From Ensifer canadensis (GTDB taxonomy: Bacteria; Pseudomonadota; Alphaproteobacteria; Rhizobiales; Rhizobiaceae), in the NCBI RefSeq assembly GCF_017488845.2, contig NZ_CP083370.1:2170001-2234000 (forward strand): a DNA stretch of 64,000 nt, written 5' to 3'. Below, piece by piece: positions 22,093-48,393 of the stretch (positions are counted from its first letter, which is position 1; each line of letters opens with the position of its first letter). Both the position numbers and the translations under genes were made by a program. Under the pieces are notes generated by a model that was given only the letters and a program-made list of their open reading frames with translations, did not search any database and was not told the DNA's origin.

Positions 22093-22106
22093 AGTTTGGG
22101 CTTTCG

Positions 22107-22129: not shown

Positions 22130-22231
22130 TTCCTTACGAGTCCTCGCCGGCGGCCCGATGACCACCTCCCCGCTCGCACGCGGCCGGAGCGGCCACGGGC
22201 CGATGACGACCCCTATTCAATGGAGAAGAGT

Positions 22232-23086: not shown

Positions 23087-23381
23087 CGTTAGGCTCGGGG
23101 GCGGATAGTTTCCGGCCCTCGCTGCTGCGACGGATGCATGCCGGTCATACGAAGAAGCAGTCGATCTTGGCCCTTCCAAGGCTGAAATCCTCGAAGCACT
23201 CCTTTTCGCTCCTAACGCTGAAGAAGCGCTGATCATCCCCCGGCGTTTTCGGTGCTTGGACGCCCCTTCGATTCAATTGATGCACCAATGAAGAGTGCGA
23301 GACGGAAGTCACGCACTCGCAATCCTTCGCAGCTTCATGCCCGCTTGTGGCCGCGAAATTGCTCTTGTTTTCGATCCGATA
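23087..23381. other. spacer with a possible AhpD/CMD-like coding remnant
   Basis: No complete gene. In one plus-strand frame 23109-23291 reads FPALAAATDACRSYEEAVDL then GPSKAEILEALLFAPNAEEA and stops, a pattern like a fragment of a carboxymuconolactone decarboxylase/AhpD protein, without a start or the catalytic C-x-x-C. Weak evidence only. Confidence 0.3.
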
Positions 23382-24386: not shown

Positions 24387-24493
24387 TACGTTCTCCTTAT
24401 ATCATCCGGTGCTGTAACAGATGCATAAATTCGCACCGCATGATAATTAGGTCCGCGTAAGAAACATTGTTTTGAAATTCGGAAGAATGCCAA

Positions 24494-25399: not shown

Positions 25400-25651
25400 T
25401 CTCTCCCAGTAGCGCGATCCTGCCAAGGCGGGTGTCGCGCTAAGCGGTCATTCGGCGGCGAGGATTATTTGTGTCTTTGTTGGCACCCGATCATAGGCCC
25501 AAAACGAACATCCGACACTTGTAGCGACCGGCCGACCGCGTGTGGCTCAAAGCGTACTTCTATGCACGCCTTCTGCCGCAAAGCCGTCGGAAAGGCACTC
25601 TTCTGACTTGGTCCAGGCCCCCACGCTCCTTGGGACGCGGGGGTATCGGAC

Positions 25652-26536: not shown

Positions 26537-26696
26537 TCTCTTCTCCTTCATTCGGCCATCGCAATTTTCCGACGGTCTTGTGGTCGCGCCATAGCGCTCA
26601 GCTCAAAGGTACTGTATTTTTTCGAGCGATAAAGGTAGTCTTCTGGCGAGGACCGTTTCCTGCAAGTCTACAATCATCTCCGTGAGAGACGTGCGA

Positions 26697-27605
26697 ATGA
26701 ATGAGTTCGACCACCTGGGCAGTGTTGCCGCCTTCGTCACCGCAGCTCGAGCCGGAAGCTTCACCGCTGCCGCGGAAAAGCTCGGCGTCTCGAAATCCGC
26801 CATCGGGAAGAGCATCGCCCGTCTCGAGGATCGCCTCGGCATGCAACTGTTCAATCGGACCACTCGGAAAATGGTGTTGACCGACGACGGCCAGGCCTAC
26901 TTCGAAACATGCGCAAGTTCGCTGGACAACATCCTTGGCGTCGAGGCAGCTCTCACGACAAGCAGGCACAACCTCACCGGTCGGCTGCGGATTGACATGC
27001 CTGTATCGTTCGGACGCCGCATCATGCTGCCGATCCTGTTGGACATCACCCGCCCCTATCCGCGTCTCCAACTCACGTTGACCTTCACCGACCACGTGGT
27101 TGATCCGATCGCTGAGGGCATCGATCTTGTCATCCGCTTCGGCGACCTGGACGATTGCGACGGGCTGATCGCCCGGAAGCTTTCGTCGCAGCGTCTGGTG
27201 ACCTGCGCGTCTCCCGGCTACCTCGAAAAACACGGCACGCCGCAAACCGTTGACGATCTCGGAGACCACGCCTGCATCGTTGGATATCGACGTGGACGGC
27301 CGTTGACTTGGTGGATGGACCTTTATGGCGCAAAGCGCCGATTCCAGCCGCCCGCAACATTCGAGTTCGGCGACGGGGACGCGATAATCGACGCTGCCAC
27401 GGGTGGGTTTGGCATCTGCCAGTTTCCCCTGTCGCTGGTGCGGAGCCAAATCCAACATGGCGCGCTCGTTCCTGTCCTCGAAAAGTTCTCGACATGCGAC
27501 GTGGACATCCATGCCGTCTGGCCACGGACCTCGCATCTCAGCCCAAAGATCAGACATGTGGTGGATCGCTTGGTGGAAATTGCCTCCACCGGTGGTCTGG
27601 ACTAA
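26697..27605 (+). CDS. LysR-family transcriptional regulator, 302 aa
   Basis: HTH: FVTAARAGSFTAAAEKLGVS then KSAIGKSIARLEDRLGMQLF; effector domain: LRIDMPVSFGRRIMLPILLD and IDLVIRFGDLDD. I use the ATG at 26697 (MNEFDHLGS); a GTG at 26682 is possible. It sits between the divergent TIM-barrel gene and the convergent hydroxyquinol operon and probably regulates one or both. Confidence 0.9.
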   Translation: MNEFDHLGSVAAFVTAARAGSFTAAAEKLGVSKSAIGKSIARLEDRLGMQLFNRTTRKMVLTDDGQAYFETCASSLDNILGVEAALTTSRHNLTGRLRIDMPVSFGRRIMLPILLDITRPYPRLQLTLTFTDHVVDPIAEGIDLVIRFGDLDDCDGLIARKLSSQRLVTCASPGYLEKHGTPQTVDDLGDHACIVGYRRGRPLTWWMDLYGAKRRFQPPATFEFGDGDAIIDAATGGFGICQFPLSLVRSQIQHGALVPVLEKFSTCDVDIHAVWPRTSHLSPKIRHVVDRLVEIASTGGLD

Positions 27606-27647
27606 GCACGCCCGGGGCCGGCCGGGTGTGCTTCGGTTCAAAGTCGG

Positions 27648-28445
27648 TCAAATGGCCCTGATGCTGCCGCCGTCGACGCCCCAAACAGCAGACGTAACGA
27701 ACGAAGCCAGGTCGGATGCCAGGAAAACAATCACGTTGGCGACTTCTTCCGGGGTACCGAGACGAGCAAGCGGGAGTTGTCGGAGCTTCATTTCATGCTC
27801 AACGGCCGCCTGCGGCTCCATGTTGTAGTGCTTACCCATGGTTTCAGCGAAGCCACCGGGCTTCGTCCAAAACGGCGTCCAAATCGGGCCGGGTGCGACA
27901 GCGTTCACGCGAACGTTCGCCCCTTCGGCACGTGCGAGCCCCTTGGTTAGTGCCAACACTGCGGCCTTGGATGCCGAATAGTCGATCGGAACCGGTTCCG
28001 GCTGGCGAGCTAGGTCCGAGCCGTTGTTGACGATGCACCCCTTGCGCTCGCGGAGAATGGGGAGAAGATGCCGGGTGGCGCGCACGTAGCTCATGAAATT
28101 GAGCTGGAACGTCTTGTCCCAATCGTCGTCCGATAGTTGTTCGAATGTGCGGATCGCGCCGGAACCGACGTTGTTCACCAAGACATCGACGATGCCGCCG
28201 GTGGAGTCGAGCAACTGCTCCAGGCCCGACTTCACGCCTTCTCCCGTCATCAGGTCGGCTTTGACCGTGATCGCCTTTCCGCCGGTTGAGGAAATTTCCG
28301 TTGCGACTTCGCGAAGTTGCGACTCGTTGATATCGAGCAGGCCAACGGTTGCCCCCTCCTTCGCAAAAGCCACAGCGGTGGCCCTGCCGATGCCCTCCGC
28401 AGCACCGGTGATGAAGACGACCTTACCTTTCAAACCGCTTTCCAT
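27648..28445 (-). CDS. SDR-family dehydrogenase, 265 aa
   Basis: Classical short-chain dehydrogenase: cofactor motif TGAAEGIG (about residues 13-20), Asp for adenine (LLDINES, NAD preference), NNVG, the catalytic Ser/Tyr/Lys in NNGSDLA and DYSASKAAV, and the C-terminal VDGGS. The ATG at 28445 follows GGAGG. It is the last gene of the ten-gene importer/hydroxyquinol operon, 31 bp after the preceding SDR gene. It probably oxidises a ring hydroxyl of the imported substrate. Confidence 0.9.
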   Translation of the reverse strand: MESGLKGKVVFITGAAEGIGRATAVAFAKEGATVGLLDINESQLREVATEISSTGGKAITVKADLMTGEGVKSGLEQLLDSTGGIVDVLVNNVGSGAIRTFEQLSDDDWDKTFQLNFMSYVRATRHLLPILRERKGCIVNNGSDLARQPEPVPIDYSASKAAVLALTKGLARAEGANVRVNAVAPGPIWTPFWTKPGGFAETMGKHYNMEPQAAVEHEMKLRQLPLARLGTPEEVANVIVFLASDLASFVTSAVWGVDGGSIRAI

Positions 28446-28476
28446 GTGTTCCTCCACTTTTGTCTGTGTTTTATGG

Positions 28477-29274
28477 TTAGACCGACGCGCCTTCGGCACC
28501 GGTCCGATAATCGAAACTCGTGGTCAGGCCGCCGTCAGCGACGATTTCCGCACCCCGGAGCGCGGTTGCGCCACTGGAGAGCAGGAACATCGCCGATTGG
28601 GCGACCTCGGCCGCTTCGAGGATTCGACCTTCCGGCTGACGAGCAGACCGTGTTGCCAGGAACTGCTTGCTGTCGGTTGCCGATTCCAGATGACGCTTGA
28701 AGAGGCCAGCAAGCATCGGGCCAGGGCTTAGGACGTTGGTGCGCACGCCATCCCGGGCATGATCGACGGCGACGGTCCGTGCGAGCTGACGAACCGCCGC
28801 CTTTGTCGCATTGTAGATGGCAAGCTGTTGTTCAGCGAGGGTCGCGTTGACGCTGGCGACGGCCACGATCGCACCGTTTTTCTTTTCAACCATAAGCGGG
28901 ACCAATGACTTCATGGCCAACACCGTGCCGGTGATATTCACGTGCATTGCGCGCGCCAGGATGTCCGCGGTCACCTCAGTCACATCGCAGACGTCGAGAA
29001 TGGCGGCCGATGTCACCAGGCCCAGCGACGATGCGTTTTCGGTTCGCAAATGATCGACGACCTTGTCCCAGGTTGCCTGTGCGCCGACGTCGCCTGCGAT
29101 GTGGGTGTAGGCCGCGTGCGATGAGAGGTTTTCCTGGGCACCGGCGACATCCACGCCGACTGTGGCGACCCCATTCTGAAGCAGGAGGCGGCACAGCTCA
29201 TGTCCGAGACCGGACGACGCGCCGGTCACGACGACCGTCTGGGGAAGTGAAAACTGAACGACTGGAGAGGTCAC
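28477..29274 (-). CDS. SDR-family dehydrogenase, 265 aa
   Basis: Short-chain dehydrogenase with TGASSGLG (about 18-25), VGVDVAG, and catalytic NATKAAV preceded by Tyr (AIYNATK); the usual NNAG is TSAA (LVTSAAILD). GTG start at 29274 with AAGGAGCC upstream. It lies 12 bp after the dioxygenase gene. With its neighbour it gives two successive oxidations in the operon. Confidence 0.88.
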   Translation of the reverse strand: MTSPVVQFSLPQTVVVTGASSGLGHELCRLLLQNGVATVGVDVAGAQENLSSHAAYTHIAGDVGAQATWDKVVDHLRTENASSLGLVTSAAILDVCDVTEVTADILARAMHVNITGTVLAMKSLVPLMVEKKNGAIVAVASVNATLAEQQLAIYNATKAAVRQLARTVAVDHARDGVRTNVLSPGPMLAGLFKRHLESATDSKQFLATRSARQPEGRILEAAEVAQSAMFLLSSGATALRGAEIVADGGLTTSFDYRTGAEGASV

Positions 29275-29286
29275 GAGCTTGGCTCC

Positions 29287-30201
29287 TTACTTGGTGTCTT
29301 TTTTACTGGCGAGAACGAATTCCCAGTTCACCGACCAGAACGGTTCATCGAACTCGAGCGCTTGGGCTCGGTCCGCGTCCGTGACCCGCTCGAATTTGGC
29401 GATCAGCGAATCCTTCACGCCGAACACGGCGTCCTGGTCGAGATACTCGCAATCCGGCGAGAAGATGTGGGTGATGACCGGGTCGTATCCTTCGGCGCTG
29501 ACGATGAAATGGATATGCGCCGCGCGATTTGGGTGCCGGCCGAGCGCACCCAAGAGCTTCCCGACAGGGCCGTCATCCGGGATCGGATAGAACCGGGGCT
29601 TCGAGGATCGGTACCAGTATTCGCCGGCCTCATTTGTCGTGAACACGCCGCGAAGGTTCCAGTCCGGCTGAACGCCCTTTTGCTGGACGTCATAGAAACC
29701 GTCGTCGTTGGTCTGCCAAACGTCGACCAGCGCCCCGGCAATTGGCTTCCCATCCGTGTCGAGGACCCTGCCCGTTACGACAAGAGGTTCGCCTTTTCCA
29801 TCAAGGCAGATGTTTGTGCCGTGATCGTAGCGAGGAGCTTCGGGAACATAGAACGGCCCGAGAATGGTGTTCTCGGTGGCTCCGCTCGGACGGCGGTGGT
29901 TGATCGAATCGACCAGCATTGAAACGCCAAGGACATCGGACAGCAAGATGTATTCCTGTCGCCAGTCCGTGCACATCTGCCCTACTGCGGTAAGGAACTT
30001 GATCGCTGTGAGCCACTCTTCATGCGTCGGCTCGATTTCTTTTACAGCAGCGTGAAGGTGTTTGACGATTGTTCCCATGACCTCGCGCAGGCGTGGGTCA
30101 GCTTCCTGCCCCATCCGCGCGTTAACCACCTCCGCCGAGGCCTCCTCCGTGAAGTACGGGTATTGGGGGGCTTTCGCCTTGACGTGTCCTTCTCCCGACA
30201 T
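29287..30201 (-). CDS. hydroxyquinol 1,2-dioxygenase (intradiol ring-cleavage), 304 aa
   Basis: Opens 1,2,4-trihydroxybenzene (hydroxyquinol) to maleylacetate/3-hydroxymuconate with a non-haem Fe(III). The catechol-dioxygenase N-terminal helical domain (about 30-100) precedes the beta-sandwich with GPFYVPEAP. By alignment with catechol 1,2-dioxygenases the iron ligands are Tyr170 (DDGFYDV), Tyr205 (PRFYPIP), His229 and His231 (AHIHF). Assignment to hydroxyquinol rather than catechol rests on the adjacent maleylacetate reductase gene. Part of the ten-gene operon. Confidence 0.9.
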   Translation of the reverse strand: MSGEGHVKAKAPQYPYFTEEASAEVVNARMGQEADPRLREVMGTIVKHLHAAVKEIEPTHEEWLTAIKFLTAVGQMCTDWRQEYILLSDVLGVSMLVDSINHRRPSGATENTILGPFYVPEAPRYDHGTNICLDGKGEPLVVTGRVLDTDGKPIAGALVDVWQTNDDGFYDVQQKGVQPDWNLRGVFTTNEAGEYWYRSSKPRFYPIPDDGPVGKLLGALGRHPNRAAHIHFIVSAEGYDPVITHIFSPDCEYLDQDAVFGVKDSLIAKFERVTDADRAQALEFDEPFWSVNWEFVLASKKDTK

Positions 30202-30222
30202 TTCGTTCCTCCTGATGTCTGC

Positions 30223-31293
30223 TTAGCTGCGGTCCGTGGCAGGGGCGTCACCTGCATAGGCCCGGCTGATCAGCCCGCGCAGGGCGGCCTGCTCCAAAGG
30301 CTGGGGATTCCAATAGGGGTTGGTAAGTGCCCGGTCGGTAGCGGTATCGATCCCGGATTCCGGCATGCCGAGGTCAGCGAGGGCGCGCTTCGCGCCGATA
30401 CGTCCAGCCAAATCGTAGAGCGCACGAGCGGGGTCGTCGGTCTTGAGACGATCCGACAAGCTCTTCATGACGTCAGGGATCGCCGGCGCATTGTAGGCAA
30501 GTGCATGCGGCAACACGATTGTATGGGTCTCGGCGTGCGGCAGATCAAAGGTTCCGCCAATCGTGTGGCACAGCTTGTGGTGCAACGCCATGCCGACCGA
30601 CCCAAGGCAAATACCGCAGAGCCATGCGCCATAGAGCGCCTTTGCCCGCGCATCCGAATTCTTTGGGTCGTCCGCGATGATCGGCAGCGCCTCATAGAGA
30701 GCCCCGATGGCCTCCAAAGCCATCATCGAGATGATGGGATTGGTTTCCCTCGCGTAGAGTGCCTCAACCGCATGGGCGATAGCATTCATGCCGCTCGTCC
30801 CTGACAGACCCGCGGGCAGCGTCAGCGTCAGATCGACGTCGTAGATCACCACCTCCGGGAGGATTTTCGGGCTGCTCTGCGTGACCTTGTTGCCGTCTTT
30901 CGTTTCGCCGAGGATCGGGGTCATCTCCGATCCTGCGTAGGTGGTAGGCGCGACGATCTGAGGAAGGTCGGTTCGAAGGGCCAGAGCCTTGGCCAGCCCC
31001 GTCGTTGATCCACCGCCAACTGCGACCAGTCCATCGATGCCTTTGTCTTTCACGACCTGCAAAGCGGTTTCGGTCACCGAAACGGGTGTGTGCATTACCG
31101 CGCCTGCGAAGATTCCGGCGCAGCGATCGCCGATGAGCTCAGCCAGCCTCTTTGCGTCTTCTTCCTGCGGAGGAGTTGCCAGAACGAGAACGTTGTTGAG
31201 TCCGAGCCGTTCAACTTCCGCCGGAAGCTGCGCGAGTGTGCCTGATCCGAATATCACCCGAGCCGGTTGTCCGTTGTATGTAAAAGACAGCAT
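30223..31293 (-). CDS. maleylacetate reductase (iron-ADH family), 356 aa
   Basis: Reduces maleylacetate to 3-oxoadipate with NAD(P)H. Typical segments: VIFGSGTLAQLPAEVERLG, VAVGGGSTTGLAKALAL, PTTYAGSEMTPI, GTSGMNAIAHAVEALYA, and the His-rich region HHKLCHTIGG and LPHAETHTIVLPH. The ATG at 31293 fits the family start (MLSFTYNGQ). It lies 21 bp upstream of the dioxygenase gene, the classic pairing of hydroxyquinol pathways. Confidence 0.92.
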   Translation of the reverse strand: MLSFTYNGQPARVIFGSGTLAQLPAEVERLGLNNVLVLATPPQEEDAKRLAELIGDRCAGIFAGAVMHTPVSVTETALQVVKDKGIDGLVAVGGGSTTGLAKALALRTDLPQIVAPTTYAGSEMTPILGETKDGNKVTQSSPKILPEVVIYDVDLTLTLPAGLSGTSGMNAIAHAVEALYARETNPIISMMALEAIGALYEALPIIADDPKNSDARAKALYGAWLCGICLGSVGMALHHKLCHTIGGTFDLPHAETHTIVLPHALAYNAPAIPDVMKSLSDRLKTDDPARALYDLAGRIGAKRALADLGMPESGIDTATDRALTNPYWNPQPLEQAALRGLISRAYAGDAPATDRS

Positions 31294-31337
31294 TTCCAAA
31301 TCCGTTGGTTGCGATGTTGCCGAGCGATGAACGCCCC

Positions 31338-31628
31338 CTATGCGCGATTGTCCACGCGCATAAGGAAAGGGTGGATGCGGACTTCAGCCCAGACGTTCGC
31401 CTTGCTGAAAGGGTCGTTCGCGTTGAAGTCGACGACATCCTGCTTCGTGGCGGCCTCGAACACGAACATGGAGCCGATCATGGTCTCGCCGTCGTCCGCG
31501 ACCAAAGGGCCCGAGATCACCGTGCTCACCGCCCCCGGTGCACCGAGGTAGGCCTTATGCGCATCGTAATTCGCGAGCCTCATCGGCAGGCCGTCTTCGT
31601 GATCGATGCAGTGAACTACAAAACGCAT
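31338..31628 (-). CDS. YciI-family protein, 96 aa
   Basis: Small ferredoxin-like-fold protein: MRFVVHCIDHEDGLPMRLANYDAHKAYL with the conserved Asp-His, and the C-terminal DPFSKANVWAEVRIHPF. YciI relatives act as dehydrohalogenases, lactone or enol isomerases in aromatic routes. The ATG at 31628 follows GGGAGGG; the frame is open further upstream but not protein-like. It may process a ring or ring-opened intermediate. Confidence 0.85.
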   Translation of the reverse strand: MRFVVHCIDHEDGLPMRLANYDAHKAYLGAPGAVSTVISGPLVADDGETMIGSMFVFEAATKQDVVDFNANDPFSKANVWAEVRIHPFLMRVDNRA

Positions 31629-31649
31629 GAAAGCCCTCCCACGATGTCG

Positions 31650-31678
31650 ATGGCGGTCGGCGTTTGTCCGACCGCCAT
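31650..31678 (-). promoter_or_regulatory. intercistronic hairpin between importer-2 binding-protein and YciI genes
   Basis: Perfect 11-bp stem ATGGCGGTCGG / CCGACCGCCAT with loop CGTTTGT, in the 59-bp gap. No T-run, so it is more likely an mRNA processing or stability element that keeps binding-protein mRNA in excess. It resembles the stem at 22107. Confidence 0.6.
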
Positions 31679-31687
31679 TCAATAGAA

Positions 31688-32671
31688 TTACTTCTTGCCG
31701 GCCGCGGCGTAGCAATCCTTGACGTTTGCCTTCGTGATGACTTCATGAGGCAGATAGCGGGTCTTCTCACCCATCTTGCCGTCGAGAACGTCGGCGACAG
31801 CCTTGGCGGCGTACTGGCCATCGTCGATCGGCGACTGCAGAACGCTGGCGTACTGGGTGCCGGCTTCGATCGCCGTTATGCCTTCGATGCTGCAGTTGGA
31901 GCCGACGAGCACGAGTTTGGCGGGATCGATGTTCGCGCGCTGGGCGGCGACGATCACGCCAGCGAGCATGTTATCCGCCTGGGCGTAGACGCCCTTGATC
32001 TTGTCGCCATACTGCGTGAACAGCGACGAAGCCGCCTCCGTGGCCTTCGTCTGATCCCAGTTTCCGGGCTGTGAACCCGCGATCTTGATAGGCGACTTGT
32101 TCGCTTCGAGGGTCTTGGAGAAACCGTCGAGGCGCTGGATTTGTGGCGGCGTACCCGGCTGGCCTACGATGACAAAGACGTCACCGCTTTCGATGCCCCG
32201 TTCCTTGAAGCCCTGCTCCATGGCCTTGGCGGCGCTTTCCCCGTTGCCGGTGTCGTTGGGGCCGGTAAACACATCCCAGTACTTCTCGTACTTCTGGTCG
32301 GGCATCGAGTTGGTCAAAACCAGCGGAATGCCCGCGTTCTTGATCTTGCGAAGCGAAGGAACAATTGCGCTGGCGTCGGCCGCCCAGAGTACGATCGCGT
32401 CCGGCTTTTGTCCGATTGCCTGATCGACCTGCGATGCTTGTTCCGCCGGATCGAAGTTCGTGATCTTGACCTCAATGTCCAGGCCGAGCTTGGCGGCCTC
32501 TTCCTTGAACGCGGTCTGATGGATTGAGCAATAGGAGCATTCTTCCGAAACCGTCAGCAGGATTACCTTTGATCCCTTTGCCGCTGCGAAGCTCTCAACA
32601 GTTGGCAATATCGGGCTTGAAACCGTCGCCAAGAACGTTGCAGCCGCGCACATCTTTAGAAACTTGTGCAT
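31688..32671 (-). CDS. CUT2-type ABC transporter substrate-binding protein, 327 aa
   Basis: Periplasmic binding protein with signal peptide (MHKFLKMCAAATFLATVSSPIL). The fold is ribose-binding-protein-like: VDQAIGQKPDAIVLWAADAS, GIPLVLTNSMPDQ, DVFTGPNDTGNG. Unusually the first strand carries SEECSYCSIHQ, two Cys three residues apart, in place of the common aromatic/polar ligand contacts. GGGAGG precedes the ATG at 32671. Transcribed after two permease genes. Confidence 0.9.
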   Translation of the reverse strand: MHKFLKMCAAATFLATVSSPILPTVESFAAAKGSKVILLTVSEECSYCSIHQTAFKEEAAKLGLDIEVKITNFDPAEQASQVDQAIGQKPDAIVLWAADASAIVPSLRKIKNAGIPLVLTNSMPDQKYEKYWDVFTGPNDTGNGESAAKAMEQGFKERGIESGDVFVIVGQPGTPPQIQRLDGFSKTLEANKSPIKIAGSQPGNWDQTKATEAASSLFTQYGDKIKGVYAQADNMLAGVIVAAQRANIDPAKLVLVGSNCSIEGITAIEAGTQYASVLQSPIDDGQYAAKAVADVLDGKMGEKTRYLPHEVITKANVKDCYAAAGKK

Positions 32672-32744
32672 TTCCATTCCTCCCTGGGGTTGAAGCGTGC
32701 GGCCGATACTGGCCAGCGTGTCGCTGTGGTCTGCCCAGCACAGA

Positions 32745-33746
32745 TCACGAACCTGAAGCGTAAAGTTGACGAGCTCTCCGATCCTTCGCGTCGGCGAGAA
32801 GCCTCCGGACGAGATGACCGTCCGCAAGAACAACGGCGAGAAGCACCAACCCATTCGTTAGAAGGATCGCGGCGGCGTTCGCACCGAGGAGGCTCATGCC
32901 GTTGTTGAGAGTGGCGAGAATGAATACGCCCACAAGAACGCCTCCGGCTCCGCCGACACCCCCGGCCAAGGCAACTCCGCCGAGGATTGCGGCGGATGCC
33001 GCCTGGATCATGATATTGGCTCCCATCTGGGCTGACGCCGTCGCCAGGCTCAGCGAAAGCAGTGAGCCAGCCAACGCGGCGCAGATGCCCGAGAGGCAAA
33101 ACACGATGCCCAGAGAGAGCCCTACGCGTGCACCTGCCGCGACCGCGACGCGGCGTTTGCTGCCGGTCACGATGATGTCCCGCCCGCTGCGGGTGTAGCG
33201 TAACAGGGCAAAAACCAAAGCAAACGCGACAAAGGTAATGATACTGCGCACTGAGAGGATGGCGAAGACCGGGTCGTCAAGGAATTCGCCGGCATCGAAA
33301 TTATCCGAGCTAACCACTCGCCCATCGGCAAGCCAGTAGGCGAGACCGGAAAGGGCCATCATCGTGCCGACGGTGACGACGAGGGACGAAATATTCAGCC
33401 GCCAGAAGATCGCCGCATTGAGGAAACCGATGACCGCGCCAAAGGACACCGCAAAGAGCACCCCTGTCAGCGCACTGGATTCGCCCATTTTCAGAGTGAT
33501 CAATCCGCCCACCGCTACCATCGCCCCGACGCTTAGGTCGAACTCGCCTGAGATCATCGTGAGTGAAAGCCCCAGCGTTACCAGCCCGAGAAGAGCGAAT
33601 GTTTGGAACAGGGCGTAAATGTTGTTGCTGCTCGTGAAATTCGGAACGAATGCAATGAACGCCACTATAAGAGCGGCGAGCAGCAGCGCCCTTCCCGCAC
33701 CGGAAGCACCGCCGATAGAACGGATGAAGTTGCTAGAACCACTCAT
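32745..33746 (-). CDS. CUT2-type ABC transporter permease (second of pair), 333 aa
   Basis: Integral membrane permease with the family segments LGLSLTMISGEFDLSVGAMVAVGGL, GFLNAAIFWRLNISSLVVTVGTMMAL and ITGSKRR-like VTGSKRRVAVAAGA. Its start overlaps the previous permease stop by 4 bp. Together they form a heterodimeric pore for importer 2. Confidence 0.92.
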   Translation of the reverse strand: MSGSSNFIRSIGGASGAGRALLLAALIVAFIAFVPNFTSSNNIYALFQTFALLGLVTLGLSLTMISGEFDLSVGAMVAVGGLITLKMGESSALTGVLFAVSFGAVIGFLNAAIFWRLNISSLVVTVGTMMALSGLAYWLADGRVVSSDNFDAGEFLDDPVFAILSVRSIITFVAFALVFALLRYTRSGRDIIVTGSKRRVAVAAGARVGLSLGIVFCLSGICAALAGSLLSLSLATASAQMGANIMIQAASAAILGGVALAGGVGGAGGVLVGVFILATLNNGMSLLGANAAAILLTNGLVLLAVVLADGHLVRRLLADAKDRRARQLYASGS

Positions 33747-34753
33747 CGCTTTTTACCTCCGACGAGAGCGCCGAACACGACGGCGAGAATTACGACCATG
33801 CCTTTGACCGCAAGCTGGACCTCGATCGGGAGCCCCTCCACGAGCAGGATGTTGCCGACGACCGCAAGGAAGGCCGCGCCGAACGCCGCATCGAGGATTC
33901 TCCCATGGCCGCCGCGGATGGAGACGCCGCCCACCAGGACTGCCGCAATCGCATCGAAGTCGATTCCCGCGCCGAGCTTGAGGTTCCCCTGAGCGGCCTG
34001 CGATGCGAAAAGTGCACCGGATAGAGCTGCCAGCATGCCGGCTATCACGAAAGCGATGACCAGCGATCGAGCAATCCTCAGGCCGGCAACCATTGCCGCG
34101 TCCCTGTTCAGGCCGATGAGTCTGAGCTCGCGTCCAAATCTCGATCTTTGGACAATGAAGTCCGCGGCAAAAGCTATGAGGAAGAACAACACGACCTGAT
34201 TGGGCAGGAAGGAAAGAAACTTGCCGACAGCAAGCCAACTCGCGTCACCTTCGCCAACTATAGTCAGGCCACCCGAGTACCAAGCACCGAAGCCCATGAC
34301 GATCGAGGAAATAGCGATCGTCGCAATGATCGGGTTCGCCCCTGCGATACCGACCACCACACCTTGGACGAGGCCGATCCCCGCGCCAACGAGCATAACG
34401 ACAGGGACCGTCGCGGCCAAACCGATGTGAAGGATGGAGGCGAACAATACCGTCGAAATGGCGGCCGTTGCGCCCATGGACAACATGAAGAGGTTGCCGC
34501 TCAGGGTAATGAACGCCATGCCCACAGCGGCGATCCCTACCGCTGCCATCGAATACATGATGGCGTTGATGTTGGTCGCAGACAGGAAGTTGTCGATCGA
34601 CGCCCAACCCCAGATCAGCAAGCCAAGTGTGACCAGCTTGACAGCTGTCGCCTGAACCCTTTCGGGGCGGAAGGCGTCTTTTACAAGATCGCCTACGAAG
34701 GTGCTTCGCGCAGTTGCATCCTTCGAAGTTGTCGGAGAAGTGATCATGGTCAA
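33743..34753 (-). CDS. CUT2-type ABC transporter permease (first of pair), 336 aa
   Basis: About ten membrane segments; AVGMAFITLSGNLFMLSMGAT and GLNRDAAMVAGLRIARSLV match the BPD_transp_2 family. Overlaps both neighbours by 4 bp (ATPase upstream, second permease downstream), so the importer proteins are translated in coupled fashion. Confidence 0.92.
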   Translation of the reverse strand: MTMITSPTTSKDATARSTFVGDLVKDAFRPERVQATAVKLVTLGLLIWGWASIDNFLSATNINAIMYSMAAVGIAAVGMAFITLSGNLFMLSMGATAAISTVLFASILHIGLAATVPVVMLVGAGIGLVQGVVVGIAGANPIIATIAISSIVMGFGAWYSGGLTIVGEGDASWLAVGKFLSFLPNQVVLFFLIAFAADFIVQRSRFGRELRLIGLNRDAAMVAGLRIARSLVIAFVIAGMLAALSGALFASQAAQGNLKLGAGIDFDAIAAVLVGGVSIRGGHGRILDAAFGAAFLAVVGNILLVEGLPIEVQLAVKGMVVILAVVFGALVGGKKR

Positions 34754-36288
34754 GCCGCAACCTCCTGTGTGCTGGACTCCGGACCGTGCAGAATGTCGCG
34801 CAGGACATCGTCCATCGACACTTCCGCGGTAAGCCTGTCAGAGACGACTGAGCCTCGAAAAATCGTGATCACTCGATCGGCGAGCTCGTGAACCTCCTCG
34901 ATGTCGGTGGTGAAAAACACCAACGACATCCCCCTCCGGGCGAGTTCGCGAAGCTGTTTGTAGATTTCCGTTCTGGCACCGATATCGACGCCGCGGGTCG
35001 GTTCGTTAAGAATGAGAACCCGCGGTTCGAGAGCGACTGCCTTTGCGAGAGAGACCTTTTGCTGATTACCACCACTGAGGGTCGAAACGTCGTGGGGAAG
35101 ACGTCTGGCATCAATCTGGAACTGAGCCGCCAGGTTACGGGCACGCTCGCGGGCCTCCGAACGTCGAACGAGTCCAAAGTGGCTTACGCGGTCGAGGATC
35201 GACGAATAGATGTTTGTCTCGATCGGAGCTTCCAGGAAGACGCCTTTACCGGCCCGGTCTTCGGATACGTAAGCGATTGACGCCTTTATCGCATCCGCGA
35301 TCGAGCGGACTTCCACCACCGACCCATCCAGTTCGATCACGCCAGCGTAACCTGGCCTCAGACCAGCGATCGCTTCCACGACAGCATCTGCACCGGAACC
35401 GAGCTGTCCGACTACGGCCAGGACCTCCCCTTCACCAACTTCCACAGACAGTTTCTTGAAGCGGCCGGGGACTGCGAAGTCTCGAAGCTTCAGCCGCGAC
35501 TTACTCGCGGTAACTGACACGGCCTCGGCGAGTGCATGTCGGCTGCCCACTTCGCGACCGATCATGGCCTGTACCAACTGCTCTGTTGTGAATTCCGTCG
35601 TAGGTCTCGTCGTTACCCTTTCGCCGTTCCGGAACACGGTGATGCGGTCGGTAAGCTCGAATACCTCGGGCAACCGGTGACTGATGAAGACGATCGTTGA
35701 ACCTCGTTCCTTGAGCAAACGCACTGCCTTGAAAACCCGGCGGATTTCGCTGTCGGACAGCGTCGCGGTGGGCTCGTCCAGCATAAGAATTTTCGCCCCA
35801 CGAACTACGCCGCGTGCGATTTCGACAAGCTGTTGTTCCGCCAGGCTCAACTTCCGGGCAGGTGCGTTCAGGTCAACGTGTGCCAACCCGATTTCGTCCA
35901 GCTGGCGTCGAACCGCCTTGGCGTGGGCCGTTCGGCGCAGGAATTCGCCGGCTGCCGGATCGCCGATCAGCACATTGTCGAGAACCGTCAGGTCCGGAAT
36001 GATCGACAGTTCTTGGTGGACGATGGAAATCAGTCGGGGGTCGGTCCTCTTTCCGGCCTTGAGTTGGACCCCGCCGACGGTGATCTCGCCTTCGGTCGGA
36101 GCAACGAGGCCGCCGAGAGTCTTGACCAAGGTGCTCTTGCCAGCGCCGTTCTCGCCGCAGAGACCGTGTATTTCTCCGGCCTGAAGCTCGAAGTCGATGT
36201 TTTTGATGGCGACAACGCCACCGTACGTCTTCCGCAGACCACGAACATCAAGAATGGTGCTGTCATTGACGGATGTTTCAGCTGACAT
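34750..36288 (-). CDS. CUT2-type ABC transporter ATPase with two nucleotide-binding domains, 512 aa
   Basis: NBD1: Walker A GENGAGKS at 45-52, signature LSLAEQQLVEIARGV, Walker B ILMLDEPTATL. NBD2: degenerate Walker A GQLGSGADA, but intact LSGGNQQKVSLAKA and LILNEPTRGVD. This is the normal state of the family, in contrast to the more decayed NBD2 of importer 1. Second gene of the operon, 23 bp after the Dabb gene. Confidence 0.93.
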   Translation of the reverse strand: MSAETSVNDSTILDVRGLRKTYGGVVAIKNIDFELQAGEIHGLCGENGAGKSTLVKTLGGLVAPTEGEITVGGVQLKAGKRTDPRLISIVHQELSIIPDLTVLDNVLIGDPAAGEFLRRTAHAKAVRRQLDEIGLAHVDLNAPARKLSLAEQQLVEIARGVVRGAKILMLDEPTATLSDSEIRRVFKAVRLLKERGSTIVFISHRLPEVFELTDRITVFRNGERVTTRPTTEFTTEQLVQAMIGREVGSRHALAEAVSVTASKSRLKLRDFAVPGRFKKLSVEVGEGEVLAVVGQLGSGADAVVEAIAGLRPGYAGVIELDGSVVEVRSIADAIKASIAYVSEDRAGKGVFLEAPIETNIYSSILDRVSHFGLVRRSEARERARNLAAQFQIDARRLPHDVSTLSGGNQQKVSLAKAVALEPRVLILNEPTRGVDIGARTEIYKQLRELARRGMSLVFFTTDIEEVHELADRVITIFRGSVVSDRLTAEVSMDDVLRDILHGPESSTQEVAA

Positions 36289-36311
36289 GCGCTCCTCCCA
36301 AAGCTTGGTCC

Positions 36312-36611
36312 TTAGACCGTGTAGTCCACCTGGTACCGGGCCGTCCGTACACCCTCTAGCTGCCGGCGGACCTCGAGGTGCGCAGGATGCTCGGCATATG
36401 CTGCTAGCGCAGCCTCGTCCTCGAACTCAGTGTAGAGAACCACATCACATGCATAGGAAACGCGACTGACGTCGATACCGACCTCAAGGCTGCGAAGGCC
36501 GGGAACCCGCCCAATCAGCCCTTCGAACCGTGCTTTGACGTCGGCTGCTGCTGAGAGCTTCTGCTCGACATCTTCCCCCTGCACGTTCCACATCACAATG
36601 TGTTTGATCAT
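36312..36611 (-). CDS. Dabb-family (stress-responsive alpha/beta-barrel) protein, 99 aa
   Basis: MIKHIVMWNVQGE and the C-terminal half VVLYTEFEDEAALAAYAEHPAHLEVRR are typical of dimeric alpha/beta-barrel (Dabb) proteins, some of which are cyclases, decarboxylases or peroxidases of small ring compounds. AAAGGAATT precedes the ATG at 36611. As the first gene of the importer/hydroxyquinol operon it may catalyse or protect an early aromatic step. Confidence 0.85.
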   Translation of the reverse strand: MIKHIVMWNVQGEDVEQKLSAAADVKARFEGLIGRVPGLRSLEVGIDVSRVSYACDVVLYTEFEDEAALAAYAEHPAHLEVRRQLEGVRTARYQVDYTV

Positions 36612-36924
36612 GGATAATTCCTTTGAATAGGCTGCTATTATTTGAGGGGCGAAACGGCTCAGCGAAGAGGCACGCGGCGAACTAGGCCTTGCCTCTCGCC
36701 CTCGATCTGAACTGCTGTCTGAACCTCCACAACGTCGCGCCTCCACACGATTGAAACTAGAATACGAAATAGGGGACCGGGAAAAAGTGCCGCAGTCGGG
36801 AATGTCTTTCCCAATTGACGGGACAGTCGGCTGCGAACTGCGGCAAAATAAAAGGCGGCTGTCGATGAAACAGCCGCCTGATGGGATTGTCTTCAATCAA
36901 ATGGGGCCGAACTTCGCTCCCGGA
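36612..36924. other. intergenic region holding the operon promoter and an upstream terminator
   Basis: About 310 bp between the Zn-dehydrogenase gene and the Dabb gene, both on the minus strand. No gene is seen. It must contain the promoter of the ten-gene operon; the terminator of the upstream gene is at 36853-36879. An imperfect repeat (GCCGCAGTCGGGAATG / GACAGTCGGCTGCGAACTGCGGC, 36789-36844) could be a regulator site. Confidence 0.45.
36853..36879 (-). terminator. rho-independent terminator of the Zn-dehydrogenase gene
   Basis: A perfect 9-bp stem, AGGCGGCTG / CAGCCGCCT with a 9-nt loop, followed on the minus strand by TTTATTTTG. It lies 46 bp after the stop at 36925. Confidence 0.8.
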
Positions 36925-37998
36925 TCAGACCGACCGCGTTGAAACGAGGATTTTCATTTTTCCACCCGCAGGGTCGAGAAGCGGCTTGAAGCCACGCTCT
37001 ACGACCTCTTCCAGCGAAATCTCGTCATCAACAATCCGTTCTGCCGGAAACAAGCCAGACTTCATCATCTCGAACACGCGCGGCCAGATCGTAAGGGGGT
37101 AGTTCAGTGACCCGCGGAGCGTGATGTCCCGCATCGTCAGGTCGAAGGGGTCTATCTCTGCCTTGACGCCCATCAAGCCAACCTGAACAACGATCCCCTG
37201 TGCTCGTACCGCCGCTATGCACGACTGCAGCGCCCGTGGATTGCCCGCACATTCGACCGCAGCATCAACGCCAACTCCTTCTTCCGTGTTGGCTTTGATC
37301 TCGCCCATGAAGCCGGCGGCCGTGGGGTCCAGGAGTATCGCATCAGACGAAATCTTGGAGAGCCGCTTTCGACGATTTACATTGGGCTCACTAACGAATA
37401 TCCGACTTGCTCCAGCAGCCCGAGCCGCCAGAACCATGAGCGCTCCGATGGGACCCGCCCCGGTAATCAGAATACTACCCCCCGGCCCGATACCGGAACG
37501 GTCGATCGCGTGGACAGCAACCGCGGCGGGTTCAATGAGTGCGCCTTGTTGATCGGTGATGTAGTCCGGCATTTTGATCGCGTTATACTCATTAACGATG
37601 GCGCGCTCCGCCATGCCTCCCCAAGGCCAACTCAGACCGACGACAGACGCTTTAGGCCCAAGAAACGAAAGGTTTTGCCGACCGTAATAGTCATAACGAG
37701 GTCCTATCTGCGGCTGGATCGAGACACGGTCACCTGGCTTGACCGATTCCACGCCCTCGCCCACCGCGACGACTTTCGCGGCGAACTCGTGCCCCAGAAT
37801 CTGCGGCAGCACCGCACCGCTGTAAACGTTCGGCGTTTTCGGCGTGAAGATCGGACCGCTCTCGTACTCGTGCAAATCGGTGCCGCAGATACCGCAAAAG
37901 GTCGGGCCGACGAGGACCTGCCCATGCACTATTTCTGTCGGCTCTGGAATTCGTTCAACGCGAACGTCGTGCTTATCGTACAAGCGCGCGGCTTTCAT
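36925..37998 (-). CDS. zinc-dependent alcohol dehydrogenase (2,3-butanediol dehydrogenase-like), 357 aa
   Basis: Medium-chain dehydrogenase. Catalytic zinc ligands: Cys38 (GICGTDLHEY), His70-Glu71 (LGHEFAA); cofactor motif ITGAGPIGALMVLAARAAG. The lobe that normally holds the four structural-zinc Cys reads IQPQIGPRYDYYGRQ and lacks them, so the structural zinc is absent. It probably oxidises a secondary alcohol of a polyol. Divergent from the LysR gene (136 bp between starts). Confidence 0.9.
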   Translation of the reverse strand: MKAARLYDKHDVRVERIPEPTEIVHGQVLVGPTFCGICGTDLHEYESGPIFTPKTPNVYSGAVLPQILGHEFAAKVVAVGEGVESVKPGDRVSIQPQIGPRYDYYGRQNLSFLGPKASVVGLSWPWGGMAERAIVNEYNAIKMPDYITDQQGALIEPAAVAVHAIDRSGIGPGGSILITGAGPIGALMVLAARAAGASRIFVSEPNVNRRKRLSKISSDAILLDPTAAGFMGEIKANTEEGVGVDAAVECAGNPRALQSCIAAVRAQGIVVQVGLMGVKAEIDPFDLTMRDITLRGSLNYPLTIWPRVFEMMKSGLFPAERIVDDEISLEEVVERGFKPLLDPAGGKMKILVSTRSV

Positions 37999-42038: not shown

Positions 42039-43970
42039 CTACGCTCCCATGCTGCGCGGAAGCTTTGCAAGGCTGACCGTCGGCCGACGGTGTCTTTCGA
42101 CGATCTCCCGGACCTCGTCGCCGGACAGCGATCTCGCTTCGATCAAGCGTCCGGCGATCTCATCCAGCGCGGAGCGTCGGCCCCGAATAATCTCCTTGGC
42201 TCGCTCGAACTCGTTGGCGATGACGTCGTGCACACGTTTCCGCAATCCGGGGTCGCTGGCGCGGAGTGCCTCGAGGCGGCTCGGCGCATTGTCCGCGACC
42301 ACCAACGTGTGTCCCATTCCCAGAGCGGCCTCCAGTAGGGTCGCGGTTCTGGTCACCGAATTCAGATCGGCATTATGGGAACCTGCCGCGCCGTCGAAGA
42401 ATGCCTCGAACACCACGGTTTCGGCAGCGATGCCTCCCAAAGTCACGGCGATATCGTCGAGGTACGCAGCTCTGGTCCTGCGCATGTGCGGCGGCATCGC
42501 GTAGGTCGCACCGCCGACCTGATTGCCGTTCCCAGGGATGGCGTACCTGGCAATTTTGACGCTCACCAGTTCACCGAACCCGAGCTCAACGGCGACAATG
42601 GCGTGTCCGGCCTCGTGGACCGCGACGGAATGAAGGTAATCGGCCGGAAGCTCGGGTGCCGGCGGCAATTCTCCGACAATGTGCGCGCCGCCGAAGCTTG
42701 CCTTTCGTCGTCGCGCCGTTCGTTTTGCAAACCGCACGAGCTGCCCGATATCGGCTCCGGAATAGCCCTCGGTCGCAAGGGTGAACTGCTCGGCCTGGTT
42801 CGGATCGAGGTCGATGCCGATGTGATACTTCAGAATTGAACGTCGGGCATTTTCATCAGGCAGCGTCACTTCAAAATGCTGTCCAAGCCTGCCTGACCGG
42901 CGGATTGCCGGGTCGAGGTGATCCGGGTTGTTACACGCCGAGACGACGACAACCCCTTTGCGCCGTTTGAAGCCGTCCAGCAATTCAAGGAAACCGGCGA
43001 TTGCGCCGCGCATGTAGCCACGGTTGCGGTCAGTTGCGCTTCGGTCTCCGAAAGTGTCGACCTCATCGATGAACAGAATCGCCGGAGCCTGTGCTTTGGC
43101 TTCATCAAAAGAGGCACGCATGGCTTTCAAATGGTCATCGAGGGAACCCGCCATCTGCCAGGCGGAAACAGAGCCGTAGATCAAAGGAACGTCGCAGGTC
43201 TTGGCCAGAGCACCGGCGAACATGGTTTTTCCCGAACCAGGCGGCCCGGAAATCAACACCCCGGCGTCGACCTCCTCCCACTGGATACGTTCCGCCTTGT
43301 AATCTGCCAAGTCGATCGCGAGGTCGTGCCCCCACTTCAGAAGCGCTCCGAACCCGTGCATTTCGTCAAGCGACGGCCCTTCGGGGTCTTTATTTACGGC
43401 AATGGTCGAAGCACGGGGATACTGGCGTAGCCGCTCCATCGCGGAAGCCGGCTGGCGACGGGTTTGGAAAGCCTGATGCAGTCGTGACCATGTCTCGGAC
43501 AACAGAATTTCGACGTCCCTCTCGGACACAGGAATGCCGAAACGTCGCAGCGCCGCCTCTGCCTGCCTTCTCATCGGAGACATGACGCTCACCACGACAT
43601 CGGCGAGCAGCCACGCCTCGGTGTCGAGCTGTCGGTCGGGCCCTGCGAAGAAAATCGCCTGGTCCTTGTTCAGGGCCACGATTTGGTCCCTATGGCGGTG
43701 CTCATCCCAAGCGGCGATACAGGGATTGTAATCCCGCTCCTCCCAGAGCCCCATCAGGAATACTTCGGCGGCTTGGGAGTAAATCGGCAAGTAGCAGTCG
43801 CCTTGAACTTGCAGGATCGCAATGAACTTCGAGTTCTTCCGATTCCGGGAGCGAAGCGCCGCCGCGATCGTGCAATAGGCCATGTAAACTGGCAGGGTAA
43901 CAAACGGATCGTCGTTTGGTTTTGACAGCCTCCATGGGCAGCGAAACCGCTTGTCAGAACGTCTAGCCAA
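42039..43970 (-). CDS. soluble FtsH-like AAA+ / M41 metalloprotease, 643 aa
   Basis: ATP-dependent zinc protease. Residues 1-190 are a unique region without membrane segments; the AAA+ module follows with Walker A GPPGSGKT (242-249), Walker B ILFIDE (298-303) and the second region of homology RRSGRLGQ (357-364). The peptidase part has HEAGH (452-456) and the third zinc ligand Asp535 (HNADLNS). True FtsH has two N-terminal membrane helices, so this enzyme should be cytosolic. TTG start at 43970 with GGGAGA 8 bp upstream, overlapping the phosphoesterase stop; Met30 is an alternative. Confidence 0.88.
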   Translation of the reverse strand: MARRSDKRFRCPWRLSKPNDDPFVTLPVYMAYCTIAAALRSRNRKNSKFIAILQVQGDCYLPIYSQAAEVFLMGLWEERDYNPCIAAWDEHRHRDQIVALNKDQAIFFAGPDRQLDTEAWLLADVVVSVMSPMRRQAEAALRRFGIPVSERDVEILLSETWSRLHQAFQTRRQPASAMERLRQYPRASTIAVNKDPEGPSLDEMHGFGALLKWGHDLAIDLADYKAERIQWEEVDAGVLISGPPGSGKTMFAGALAKTCDVPLIYGSVSAWQMAGSLDDHLKAMRASFDEAKAQAPAILFIDEVDTFGDRSATDRNRGYMRGAIAGFLELLDGFKRRKGVVVVSACNNPDHLDPAIRRSGRLGQHFEVTLPDENARRSILKYHIGIDLDPNQAEQFTLATEGYSGADIGQLVRFAKRTARRRKASFGGAHIVGELPPAPELPADYLHSVAVHEAGHAIVAVELGFGELVSVKIARYAIPGNGNQVGGATYAMPPHMRRTRAAYLDDIAVTLGGIAAETVVFEAFFDGAAGSHNADLNSVTRTATLLEAALGMGHTLVVADNAPSRLEALRASDPGLRKRVHDVIANEFERAKEIIRGRRSALDEIAGRLIEARSLSGDEVREIVERHRRPTVSLAKLPRSMGA

Positions 43971-45841: not shown

Positions 45842-46753
45842 TCAGACAGCGACCGGTGCCTCAATCGGGGGATAGGGATCGTATCCAGTCACTACGAAGT
45901 CTTCGATCCGATATCCATCGATCGATGCTGGCTTGCGGGCCAGCGTCAGCTTCGGGAAAGGCCGGGGCACCCGCGTCAACTGCTCCTTAGCCTGGTCCAC
46001 ATGGTTCAAGTAAAGATGGACGTCTCCTCCGGACCACACCAGCTCGCCCACAGGGATGTCCACTTGTTGCGCAATCATCGCCAGCAAGGCCGCCTGCTGG
46101 CAGATGTTAAACGGATTTCCCAGCATATGGTCGCTCGATCTTTGGGTGACCATAAGCGACAATCTAGGCTGACCACTGTCCAGACCAGATACGTAGAATT
46201 GATAGACCATGTGACACGGATGGAGCGCCATTTGGTCCAGTTCGCCCACATTCCAGGCGTGAAATATCATGCGCCTGCTACTTGGATTGTTTCGCAGGGT
46301 CTCAATGATCGTCGCGATCTGATCGTGTTCTCGCCCACTCTGATCGATCCAGCGTCGCCATTGCTTCCCGTATACTGGCCCCAGATCGCCCCACGCCTCA
46401 GCGAATTCCTCATCGGCCACAACCTGGGCCTCGAATTCCTGCTGAGTTATCTCTATGCCCGTTTCCTTGCGGTAGCGGGCTAATGGCCAATCCGACCAAA
46501 TTCGGACGTTCTCCCTGAGAAGAGATCGAATATTCGTCTGGCCGGTCAAAAACCATAACATCTCTTTGACGGCGGTTTTCCAATACACCCTTTTCGTGGT
46601 GTAGACGGGAAAGGTTCCATCTGAGAGATCGAAGCGCATCATAGCCCCGAACGTAGCGAGCGTTCCGACGCCAGTGCGGTCGATCCGTCGGTCTCCGTTT
46701 TCGAGAAGCCGCGTCATCAAATCCAGATATTGAAACTCGGGGTGTCTGGTCAT
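45842..46753 (-). CDS. thyA: thymidylate synthase, complete (replacement copy), 303 aa
   Basis: Methylates dUMP to dTMP with methylene-tetrahydrofolate. All functional motifs are present: Arg in DRTGVGT, catalytic Cys180 (LHPCHMVYQF), QRSSD (204-208), GNPFN (212-216) and D-V-H-L-Y (244-248). It carries an insertion of about 30 residues (RYRKETGIEITQQEFEAQVVADEEF) absent from the resident rhizobial enzyme and is clearly divergent from the fragment next to it. ATG at 46753 with TTTGGA upstream. It probably supplies the activity lost from the broken thyA. Confidence 0.93.
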   Translation of the reverse strand: MTRHPEFQYLDLMTRLLENGDRRIDRTGVGTLATFGAMMRFDLSDGTFPVYTTKRVYWKTAVKEMLWFLTGQTNIRSLLRENVRIWSDWPLARYRKETGIEITQQEFEAQVVADEEFAEAWGDLGPVYGKQWRRWIDQSGREHDQIATIIETLRNNPSSRRMIFHAWNVGELDQMALHPCHMVYQFYVSGLDSGQPRLSLMVTQRSSDHMLGNPFNICQQAALLAMIAQQVDIPVGELVWSGGDVHLYLNHVDQAKEQLTRVPRPFPKLTLARKPASIDGYRIEDFVVTGYDPYPPIEAPVAV

Positions 46754-46828
46754 GGCCATTCCAAATGTCATCGAATTCGTTTCGCAAAACACGGCACGTG
46801 AAGGTACCGGTACCATTTCGAGTATCAC

Positions 46829-47407
46829 TCAATGAAATCGCGTACTTAACATCGAAGGTACCATAGTGATGTCGGAAAACAATTGCACGCCGAGGAAGAT
46901 GTCGGCCGAACGCTGATAGAGCTGGCAGGAAAGCTTGCCGTCGGCGACATAGAACTGGAACAGGCAATGGCACGGCGGCAGGGCCATCTCGTCGACCAGC
47001 GCCGGGTTCCAGGCGGAAACGATATGACGGCGCGAGTTCGGATTGGTCTTCAGGCTTTCGACAAGACCGGCGATCTGGTCGATATGCCGCCCGTCCGGCG
47101 CCGGCCAGGAGCGCCACTGGTAGCCGTAGACGGGCCCGAGATCGCCGTTTTCGTCCGCCCATTCGTCCCAAATGCTGACGCCGTTTTCCTTGAGATAGGC
47201 GATATTGGTCTCGCCCTTCAGGAACCACAGCAGTTCGTGGATGATCGAGCGCAGGTGCAGCTTCTTGGTGGTCAGCACCGGGAAGCCTTGCGAAAGATCG
47301 AAACGCATCTGGTAGCCGAAGACCGAGCGCGTCCCCGTTCCCGTCCGGTCACCCCGGTCGGTTCCGCTGGTCATCACATGGTCGAGGAAGTCGAGATATT
47401 GCTGCAT
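46829..47407 (-). pseudogene. thyA: resident thyA, truncated at codon 174
   Basis: Residues 1-174 are a normal 264-residue-type thymidylate synthase ([20 protein letters not shown], Cys146 in [20 protein letters not shown]). After Gly173-Val174 the expected PFNI segment is replaced by 18 unrelated residues and a stop. Missing are the dUMP-binding Asn and the H-x-Y motif (Asn177, His207, Tyr209 by E. coli numbering), so the product should be inactive. The breakpoint at about 46885 is the edge of the accessory region. Confidence 0.9.
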
Positions 47408-47879: not shown

Positions 47880-48062
47880 GATGCCTCCAGATTGATCTTG
47901 CTCGATAAACCGCAGCGCCCTTGCAGGCCGCGTGCAGCAGCCGGAGTTTTTCACGGCTGCCATTCATGTCAAGGCGTTTGGCATGTCAGGGGTTTTGGAA
48001 AAGCTGCGATATATCCGTGCTTTCCCCTTTTCTTCAGCGCCGGAAAGACCTATATGACAGAT

Positions 48063-48393
48063 GCCGTCTTCGGGCGGCTATGGCAATAAACGGGCGGTGA
48101 AATAAACCCATTGGACCCGGGGGCGGTACCCGGCGCCTCCACCAAAAACCGGTCGAGATTTCGATGACCGGCTTTTGATGGGGGCGAAATAGGATCGACA
48201 AGGGCGTAAAGATCGACTTTTTGCTCGGCATTGTACCACCGTTATCGGGCTAAACTTATAGTTGCAAACGACAACTATGCTGAAGCACGTCTCGCTGCCT
48301 AACGGCGGTGCGACACTTCAAATCAAGTCCTTCCGGGTAGCACCGTAAGGCGGGGTCCGAAGGCACCTGGCAACAGAAGCCTTCACCTTCTCC
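48063..48393 (+). ncRNA. ssrA: two-piece (circularly permuted) tmRNA gene
   Basis: Rescues stalled ribosomes. The acceptor piece ends CGCCTCC-A-CCA at 48134-48144; its T-arm is CCGGG-GGCGGTA-CCCGG. A short intervening segment follows, then the coding piece starts at 48180 with GGGGGCG, which pairs with CGCCTCC over 7 bp and gives the G-U wobble at the third pair that alanyl-tRNA synthetase requires. The tag frame 48264-48302 encodes ANDNYAEARLAA-stop, the rhizobial tag. The outer limits (about 48063 and 48393) are approximate. Confidence 0.95.

Follow-up and report, generated by a model that had tools for sequence, protein, structure and literature searches.

A probable multi-recombinase integrative element that splits thyA and supplies a replacement thymidylate synthase in Ensifer canadensis

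Why does the thymidylate synthase (TS) gene thyA of Ensifer canadensis break off within its coding region, with a second and complete TS gene next to it? The locus lies in a 64,000-nucleotide stretch of contig NZ_CP083370.1 (hereafter the window; C1:2170001-2234000 in our numbering), in a genome of 8.09 Mb and six contigs. An earlier note on the window proposed that an island uses thyA as its attachment site and brings its own replacement copy. Our analysis supports this proposal: the locus very probably holds a site-specific integrative element of the multi-recombinase type, which splits thyA and supplies a replacement gene, here designated thyR. The traits of a target-replacing integrative element were found: the target is split, its remnant lies at the opposite end, relatives have empty sites, and the island contains a full replacement. 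Three findings go beyond the earlier note: the recombination module comprises several proteins, the ends are inverted repeats with a footprint of 6 bp, and the island belongs to a family of which some members are relics.

Split of the resident thyA and the replacement gene

The thyA frame of the host (window 46829-47407, minus strand, 192 aa) matches Pfam PF00303 with E=7.2e-86, covering only positions 1-177 of the 266-position profile. Comparison with 12 same-genus orthologs confirmed that the gene is normal for 174 codons and then ends abruptly, as the earlier note had it: codons 1-174 (46886-47407, minus strand) are the native 5' part of the target gene, and the remainder with the stop codon (46829-46885, minus strand) is a foreign tail. 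A whole-genome profile search found three PF00303 pieces above the cut-off: the thyA 5' part, thyR, and a piece at C1:2112682-2112984, which covers profile positions 164-266 and whose translation runs from PFNIASY through to the stop of thyA. One more match, on C5, scored below the cut-off. The missing 3' part of thyA thus sits in the same genome, 104 kb to the left of the 5' part, beside a GST-like gene, folA (dihydrofolate reductase), HflK, and HflC; folA follows it. These neighbor names, as well as DegP and SspB, come from reading the translations by eye rather than from a family scan. The earlier note had placed the other island edge to the left of position 1 and had expected the lost thyA part, folA, and an integrase there. 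All were found, and a tyrosine recombinase adjoins the 3' remnant. Measured against the 12 full-length orthologs, the nonsynonymous difference (pN) is 0.0025-0.0286 for the 5' half (ortholog-pair mean 0.0181) and 0.0097-0.0582 for the 3' half (mean 0.0390). Because neither half shows excess amino-acid change, the insertion in this genome looks recent.

The replacement gene thyR (45842-46771, minus strand, 309 aa from the ATG at 46771, with the frame open to 46828) is complete. It matches PF00303 over positions 2-266 of 266 (E=3.8e-106), lies on the same strand as the resident thyA, and shares 45% identity with the resident part over 205 columns, in agreement with the divergent second synthase described earlier. 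A 30-residue insertion had also been ascribed to this protein; it is not odd, as TIGR03284 (296 positions) spans residues 33 to 328 of the thyR protein and the solved TS structures that match include chains of 315-316 residues. The catalytic positions are conserved, judged by what we take to be the catalytic roles in E. coli TS. No ThyX match was found in this genome, and thyR is its only full-length PF00303 match; thyR is therefore the sole full-length TS detected. The 27-bp attachment site shows 0-7 mismatches in 30 resident thyA genes and 9-15 mismatches in the nine thyR genes readable by pattern (ten tried). Such mismatches would protect thyR from insertion.

Island ends and recombination module

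The whole island spans C1:2112952-2216879 (103,928 bp). Its right 46.9 kb occupies window positions 1-46879, and the rest, further left than the window, falls in loci L005-L008. Read along the strand of thyA, the sequence is GGCGTG-CAATTG-TTTTCCGACATC at the right junction and GATGTCGGAAAA-CCGTTC-AACATC at the left one. The island ends form a 12-bp inverted repeat with a 6-bp spacer; the right copy lies at 46868-46879 (minus strand), and the other copy is found beyond the window, at C1:2112952-2112963. At the thyA 5' junction, the spacer or footprint CAATTG (46880-46885, minus strand) stands in place of the native Pro-Phe codons. A sub-terminal GGTACC box (46857-46862, minus strand) is present inside the other end too and in several related islands. 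A direct repeat around GGCGTG had been anticipated, but the two junction regions share no exact word of at least 12 bases, and the inverted repeat was found instead. An internal copy of the end motif, GTGATGTCGGAAAA, lies at 7046-7059 (plus strand; 14 bases, with the 12-base core at 7048-7059 exact). Together with several insertion sequence (IS) families (IS3-like, IS21, IS66, and IS110), this copy suggests rearrangement or fusion of islands; it may mark the border of two fused islands or be a chance match.

Beside the thyA 3' remnant, we found the recombinase INT552, two large tyrosine-recombinase-like proteins (REC679 and REC1018), and a coiled-coil open reading frame (ORF), in the order REC1018 - REC679 - coiled coil - INT552. 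The set comprises three integrase-like proteins, one of which lacks the first catalytic Arg, and a small fourth protein. By the boxes that we take to be canonical for recombinases, which were used for the module proteins, REC1018 is catalytically degenerate. Our use of role names (Tfp-like for REC1018, IntB-like for REC679, and Srap-like) is likewise presumptive.

Related islands at the same base of thyA

A search of a genome contig collection for INT552 relatives, with an INT552 alignment and two peptide patterns, matched 23 stretches, ten of which encode a relative. Eight of these ten loci carry thyA codons 1-174, thyR, REC1018, REC679, and INT within a single stretch of about 10 kb, and thyA was not part of the query. 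In the nine loci that carry a thyR, it has 65-73% identity to that of the E. canadensis island in the best segments; one of them, L016, lies at a contig end and starts within thyR. When 398 genomes of the phylum were searched with REC679, the locus itself (G000) and one new locus (G1067) were found; the latter has a split thyA, a thyR (64%), and the module. Related recombinase loci elsewhere thus number 11, with thyR in ten and thyA cut at the same codon in nine. In all nine split relatives, the thyA 5' part comes first, then thyR, and then the module; the DNA examined beyond INT gave no match to a 3' remnant. The remnant is present in all eight split-locus genomes, on the same contig at a distance of 25 to 129 kb in five and on other contigs in three. 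In the islands read, thyR lies about 0.1-0.45 kb inside the 5' junction and in line with the interrupted thyA. The island of G010 (L018, L085, and L086), a genome of the Brucella/Ochrobactrum group, has interrupted thyR and recombinase frames, through either sequencing error or decay.

After removal of G170 (a thyR self-hit) from 13 rows, 12 5' junctions could be compared, and the thyA match stops at residue 174 or 175 in all of them. Four of them have CCCTTC as the 6 bp that follow codon 174; the other eight have CAATTG, TGTTTC (twice), AAGGAC, GCATTC, CAGATG, GGCAAT, or CGGACA. The end motif next to this footprint starts with TTTTCC in ten junctions, with TATGCC in G005, and with TTTTCA in G065. 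At the 3' junctions, the native CCNTTC was found in 11 of 12 rows (one base out of register in G010), and the junction of G024 is degraded. Both sides could be read in 11 islands: CCNTTC stands on the 3' side in every one, and the 5' side differs from it in seven (CCCTTC in the other four). The 6 bp of the target thus remain on the 3' side, and 6 bp borne by the element lie on the 5' side.

We also compared the divergence of thyR with that of its neighbors. In seven islands (G000-G006), thyR distances correlate with those of INT552, REC679, and REC1018 (r=0.76, 0.80, and 0.77; permutation p=0.0014, 0.0012, and 0.0016); the 5' half of the resident thyA shows no such correlation (r=-0.12, p=0.67). 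By this co-variation, thyR belongs to the element rather than to the host gene. A quick tree of 69 sequences placed the 51 thyR-type rows in a single supported group, separate from the residents.

Empty sites, relics, and the origin of thyR

Taking a resident-type match over at least profile positions 2-265 with more than 400 bits as an empty site, we found full-length resident-type thyA in 54 of 61 genomes (the E. canadensis genome and 60 relatives), one of which (G054) has an in-frame stop. In the genus itself, such a gene is present in 13 of 16 genomes. The empty sites predicted by the earlier note therefore exist, and the arrangement that would have spoken against an insertion (an ancestral pair of truncated thyA and second synthase, lacking both an empty site and a remnant) was not encountered.

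The replacement gene is more widespread than the module. A thyR-type TS is present in 44 of 394 genomes of the family, and an INT552 relative in only four; in the class, six of 385 genomes have a thyR-type match, including that of E. canadensis. Seven of the 44 keep fragments of the resident thyA (G000, G039, G249, G393, G377, G427, and G170), and the other 37 have no full-length ThyA besides thyR (one, G307, shows an additional weak match to the TS family). All 37 thyR-alone loci have at least one native thyA neighbor (sspB, a 130-aa gene, folA, or hflKC) on the expected side and strand, and 27 have native neighbors on both sides, with mostly 6-9 kb viewed per side. Relics were also found. 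A 1.7-kb relic in G377 (L199, G377:C34:147000-165000), next to folA, contains both end motifs, both thyA parts, thyR, and a REC1018 fragment. In G065, a 4.4-kb relic has both thyA parts, thyR, and degenerate end motifs; an IS element and a REC1018-like piece were seen there by reading the translations by eye. G024 retains a 29-codon thyA stub and a 3' remnant, and its near twin G022 has neither.

These distributions raise the question of whether thyR-type genes are instead old chromosomal genes at the thyA locus of some rhizobial lineages, later acquired by islands, such that the thyR-alone genomes are sources and not relics. The absence of any resident fragment in 37 of the 44 genomes and the occurrence of thyR in several species of some genera would fit such an origin, as would the lack of clear attachment scars in 38 thyR-alone loci, judged by eye against two controls. 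However, the relics in G377 and G065 retain both thyA parts, thyR, and end motifs, and the stub and remnant of G024, lost in its twin, occur in a genus in which 13 of 16 genomes have a full-length resident-type thyA. In the quick tree, moreover, split islands are scattered within the thyR clade, with eight label changes, of which at least four are forced by starred branches. We therefore regard the chromosomal origin as possible though rather unlikely.

Other observations, like the missing scars, weigh against a replacement-bearing element that targets thyA. The coiled-coil ORF was found in six of the eight split relatives and was not detected in L013 and L014. The locus L017 (G009), on a contig of a metagenome-assembled genome (MAG), is cut inside REC679 and has neither thyA nor thyR; its bin contains one full-length resident-type TS, which groups with the residents in the 69-sequence tree. 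The bin of L016 has a full-length thyA on another contig; the bins G008 and G009, both MAGs, are those with a full-length TS on another contig. When the more distant G007 is added to the seven islands, the correlation of thyR with the host thyA rises to r=0.64 (p=0.068), with r=0.72-0.83 for the recombinases. In the E. canadensis island, unlike in its relatives, thyR lies at one end and the module at the other, about 95 kb apart. Finally, a consensus scan found no sigma-70-like promoter near thyR above the level of shuffled sequence, and one weak terminator-like hairpin, also at shuffle level, lies between the thyA stop and thyR on the thyR coding strand. With regard to L017, another target or mis-binning may be involved.

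Cargo and other features

The overlap-filtered list of the island contains 90 ORFs. Pfam was run on 40 cargo and module proteins (including REC1018), as well as on thyR, INT552, the coiled-coil ORF, and a piece of REC679. Window positions 18486-37998 encode ABC transporters with a sugar-type binding protein, dehydrogenases, and an isomerase-like gene, probably for carbohydrate use. A protein with AAA and peptidase M41 domains (42039-43970, minus strand) has a partial IetA match in PADLOC (E=6.5e-23). The left part carries probable anti-phage genes: a reverse transcriptase-trypsin fusion (PADLOC RT-Protease_XI; L008:868-2478, minus strand), a DUF4011/MTES helicase-nuclease (PDC-S37/Hhe match; L008:6756-12383, minus strand), an Mrr-type endonuclease (L008:5043-6068, minus strand), and a NACHT protein (L007:11995-14106, plus strand). 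A row of genes for a trypsin-like peptidase, a subtilase, and a DNA/RNA non-specific endonuclease (L007:5975-9644, minus strand) looks like a protease-activated nuclease system. Near thyA, a tmRNA gene (marked tmRNA*) was called at 48050-48393; it is a common island target and is not used here.

Such a large island with an integrase, IS elements, and cargo could also be an integrative and conjugative element or a prophage whose integrase happens to use thyA. This is quite improbable: no relaxase, type IV secretion system, or phage structural family was found among the 40 Pfam-scanned proteins of the 90-ORF island, and the multi-protein module and 6-bp footprint fit elements of the SE, GInt, and Tn554 types better. 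It is more improbable still that the two thyA halves work together as a split enzyme with thyR as mere cargo, for although the frame is open in each half and neither has changed in excess at the amino-acid level, a recent insertion predicts the same, the halves are decayed or lost in G170, G024, G022, and the 37 thyR-alone genomes, every split genome seen has thyR (interrupted in the G010 assembly), and in the tmk precedent the authors judged, in the passages considered here, that the two tmk segments do not make a working enzyme (PMC10653934).

Comparison with known elements

The comparisons below draw on selected passages of the cited papers. The closest precedent for an element that splits and replaces its target is the tmk island of Pseudomonas putida KT2440 (PMC10653934), which likewise splits a conserved gene of the thymidine monophosphate (dTMP) pathway and brings an enzyme that takes over. 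It also has conserved recombinase genes adjoining, and some strains retain the replacement alone at the native locus. The two differ in target and replacement, tmk and dNMPK there, thyA and a homologous ThyA here, and the recombinases are compared by description. The genera named for the tmk islands are Gammaproteobacteria, whereas the thyA islands are mostly in Alphaproteobacteria.

The strand-biased circularizing integrative elements (SE; PMC10214605) resemble the thyA island in having four proteins, end motifs with a 6-bp spacer, and a foreign 6-bp footprint at one end; element-borne bases at one end are also described for Tn554-type elements (PMC12486829). The SE gene order intA-tfp-intB-srap differs from REC1018 (Tfp-like) - REC679 (IntB-like) - coiled coil - INT552, where the roles are putative, and the SE passages considered have no replacement target gene; the likeness is one of description. 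A strand-biased circle that forms without an empty site is a further SE trait. Tfp and Srap homologs were reported to be absent from Alphaproteobacteria and Betaproteobacteria, and SE or ginC-ginD blocks from Alphaproteobacteria (PMC10214605). GInt elements (ginABCD; PMC5385486) also have three integrase-like proteins and a small one, site specificity, and large cargo; GinC lacks the first catalytic Arg, and the authors infer 6-nt staggered cuts. GInt has other targets and is flanked by imperfect direct repeats (10-17 nt), a possible further difference (the two ends here share no exact direct word of at least 12 bases), and its likeness to the thyA module is again by description. The module may be a diverged GInt, since putative gin homologues in Alphaproteobacteria are mentioned (PMC5385486), though the other study found no ginC-ginD block there (PMC10214605). 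The Tn554-type Tn552-II (PMC12486829) brings 7 bp of its donor site and carries a target-like gene, tgl, which its authors suggest may rescue target function; unlike the thyA island, it is a 9-kb tnpABC element of Staphylococcus with a yolD-like target. The words thyA and thymidyl are absent from the main text of the SE and GInt papers (PMC10214605 and PMC5385486), and tmk from the latter as well. No thyA island was found in the literature searched, which comprised titles and abstract openings of the hits listed, with subscription papers mostly outside its scope.

Proposed mechanism and implications

From these features, we infer that the recombinases act at thyA, that thyR is expressed and active, and that its retention is driven by dependence. 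The element would be circular, and its ends would be joined to the attachment site attB of thyA by INT552, REC679, REC1018, and probably the coiled-coil protein; the cuts would follow codon 174 (LGV|PFN) at a spacing of 6 bp, and integration would split the gene. Because the orientation is fixed, thyR would land just inside the 5' junction and in line with thyA, and the host would therefore retain dTMP synthesis. Transcription of thyR should start from the promoter of thyA or from one within the short leader. After insertion, the host would depend on thyR, such that the rest of the island may decay while thyR is kept and may finally be the sole synthase left at the native locus.

More broadly, the islands may represent one lineage of tyrosine-recombinase elements with a multi-protein module. 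This lineage, which is possibly separate from SE and GInt, would hit thyA at one fixed base. Wherever the context is readable, it carries a replacement that lacks the attachment site; the element would thus be hard to lose and may shield the locus, and it would have repeatedly swapped the rhizobial dTMP synthase in place, in parallel to the pseudomonad tmk islands. We rate the chances of this wider view as about even. The 12 natural 5' junctions should be useful for studying the recombination chemistry of a little-studied group. The thyA islands provide a repeated natural case of a mobile island that hits and replaces a DNA-precursor gene in one step, and together with the tmk island of KT2440, they suggest that multi-recombinase elements which come with a copy of their own repeatedly land in genes for nucleotide synthesis. 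They also offer a concrete route to in-place xenologous gene replacement and a testable addiction mechanism. If the wider view holds true, these islands would be a mobile-element engine for the in-place replacement of an essential gene.
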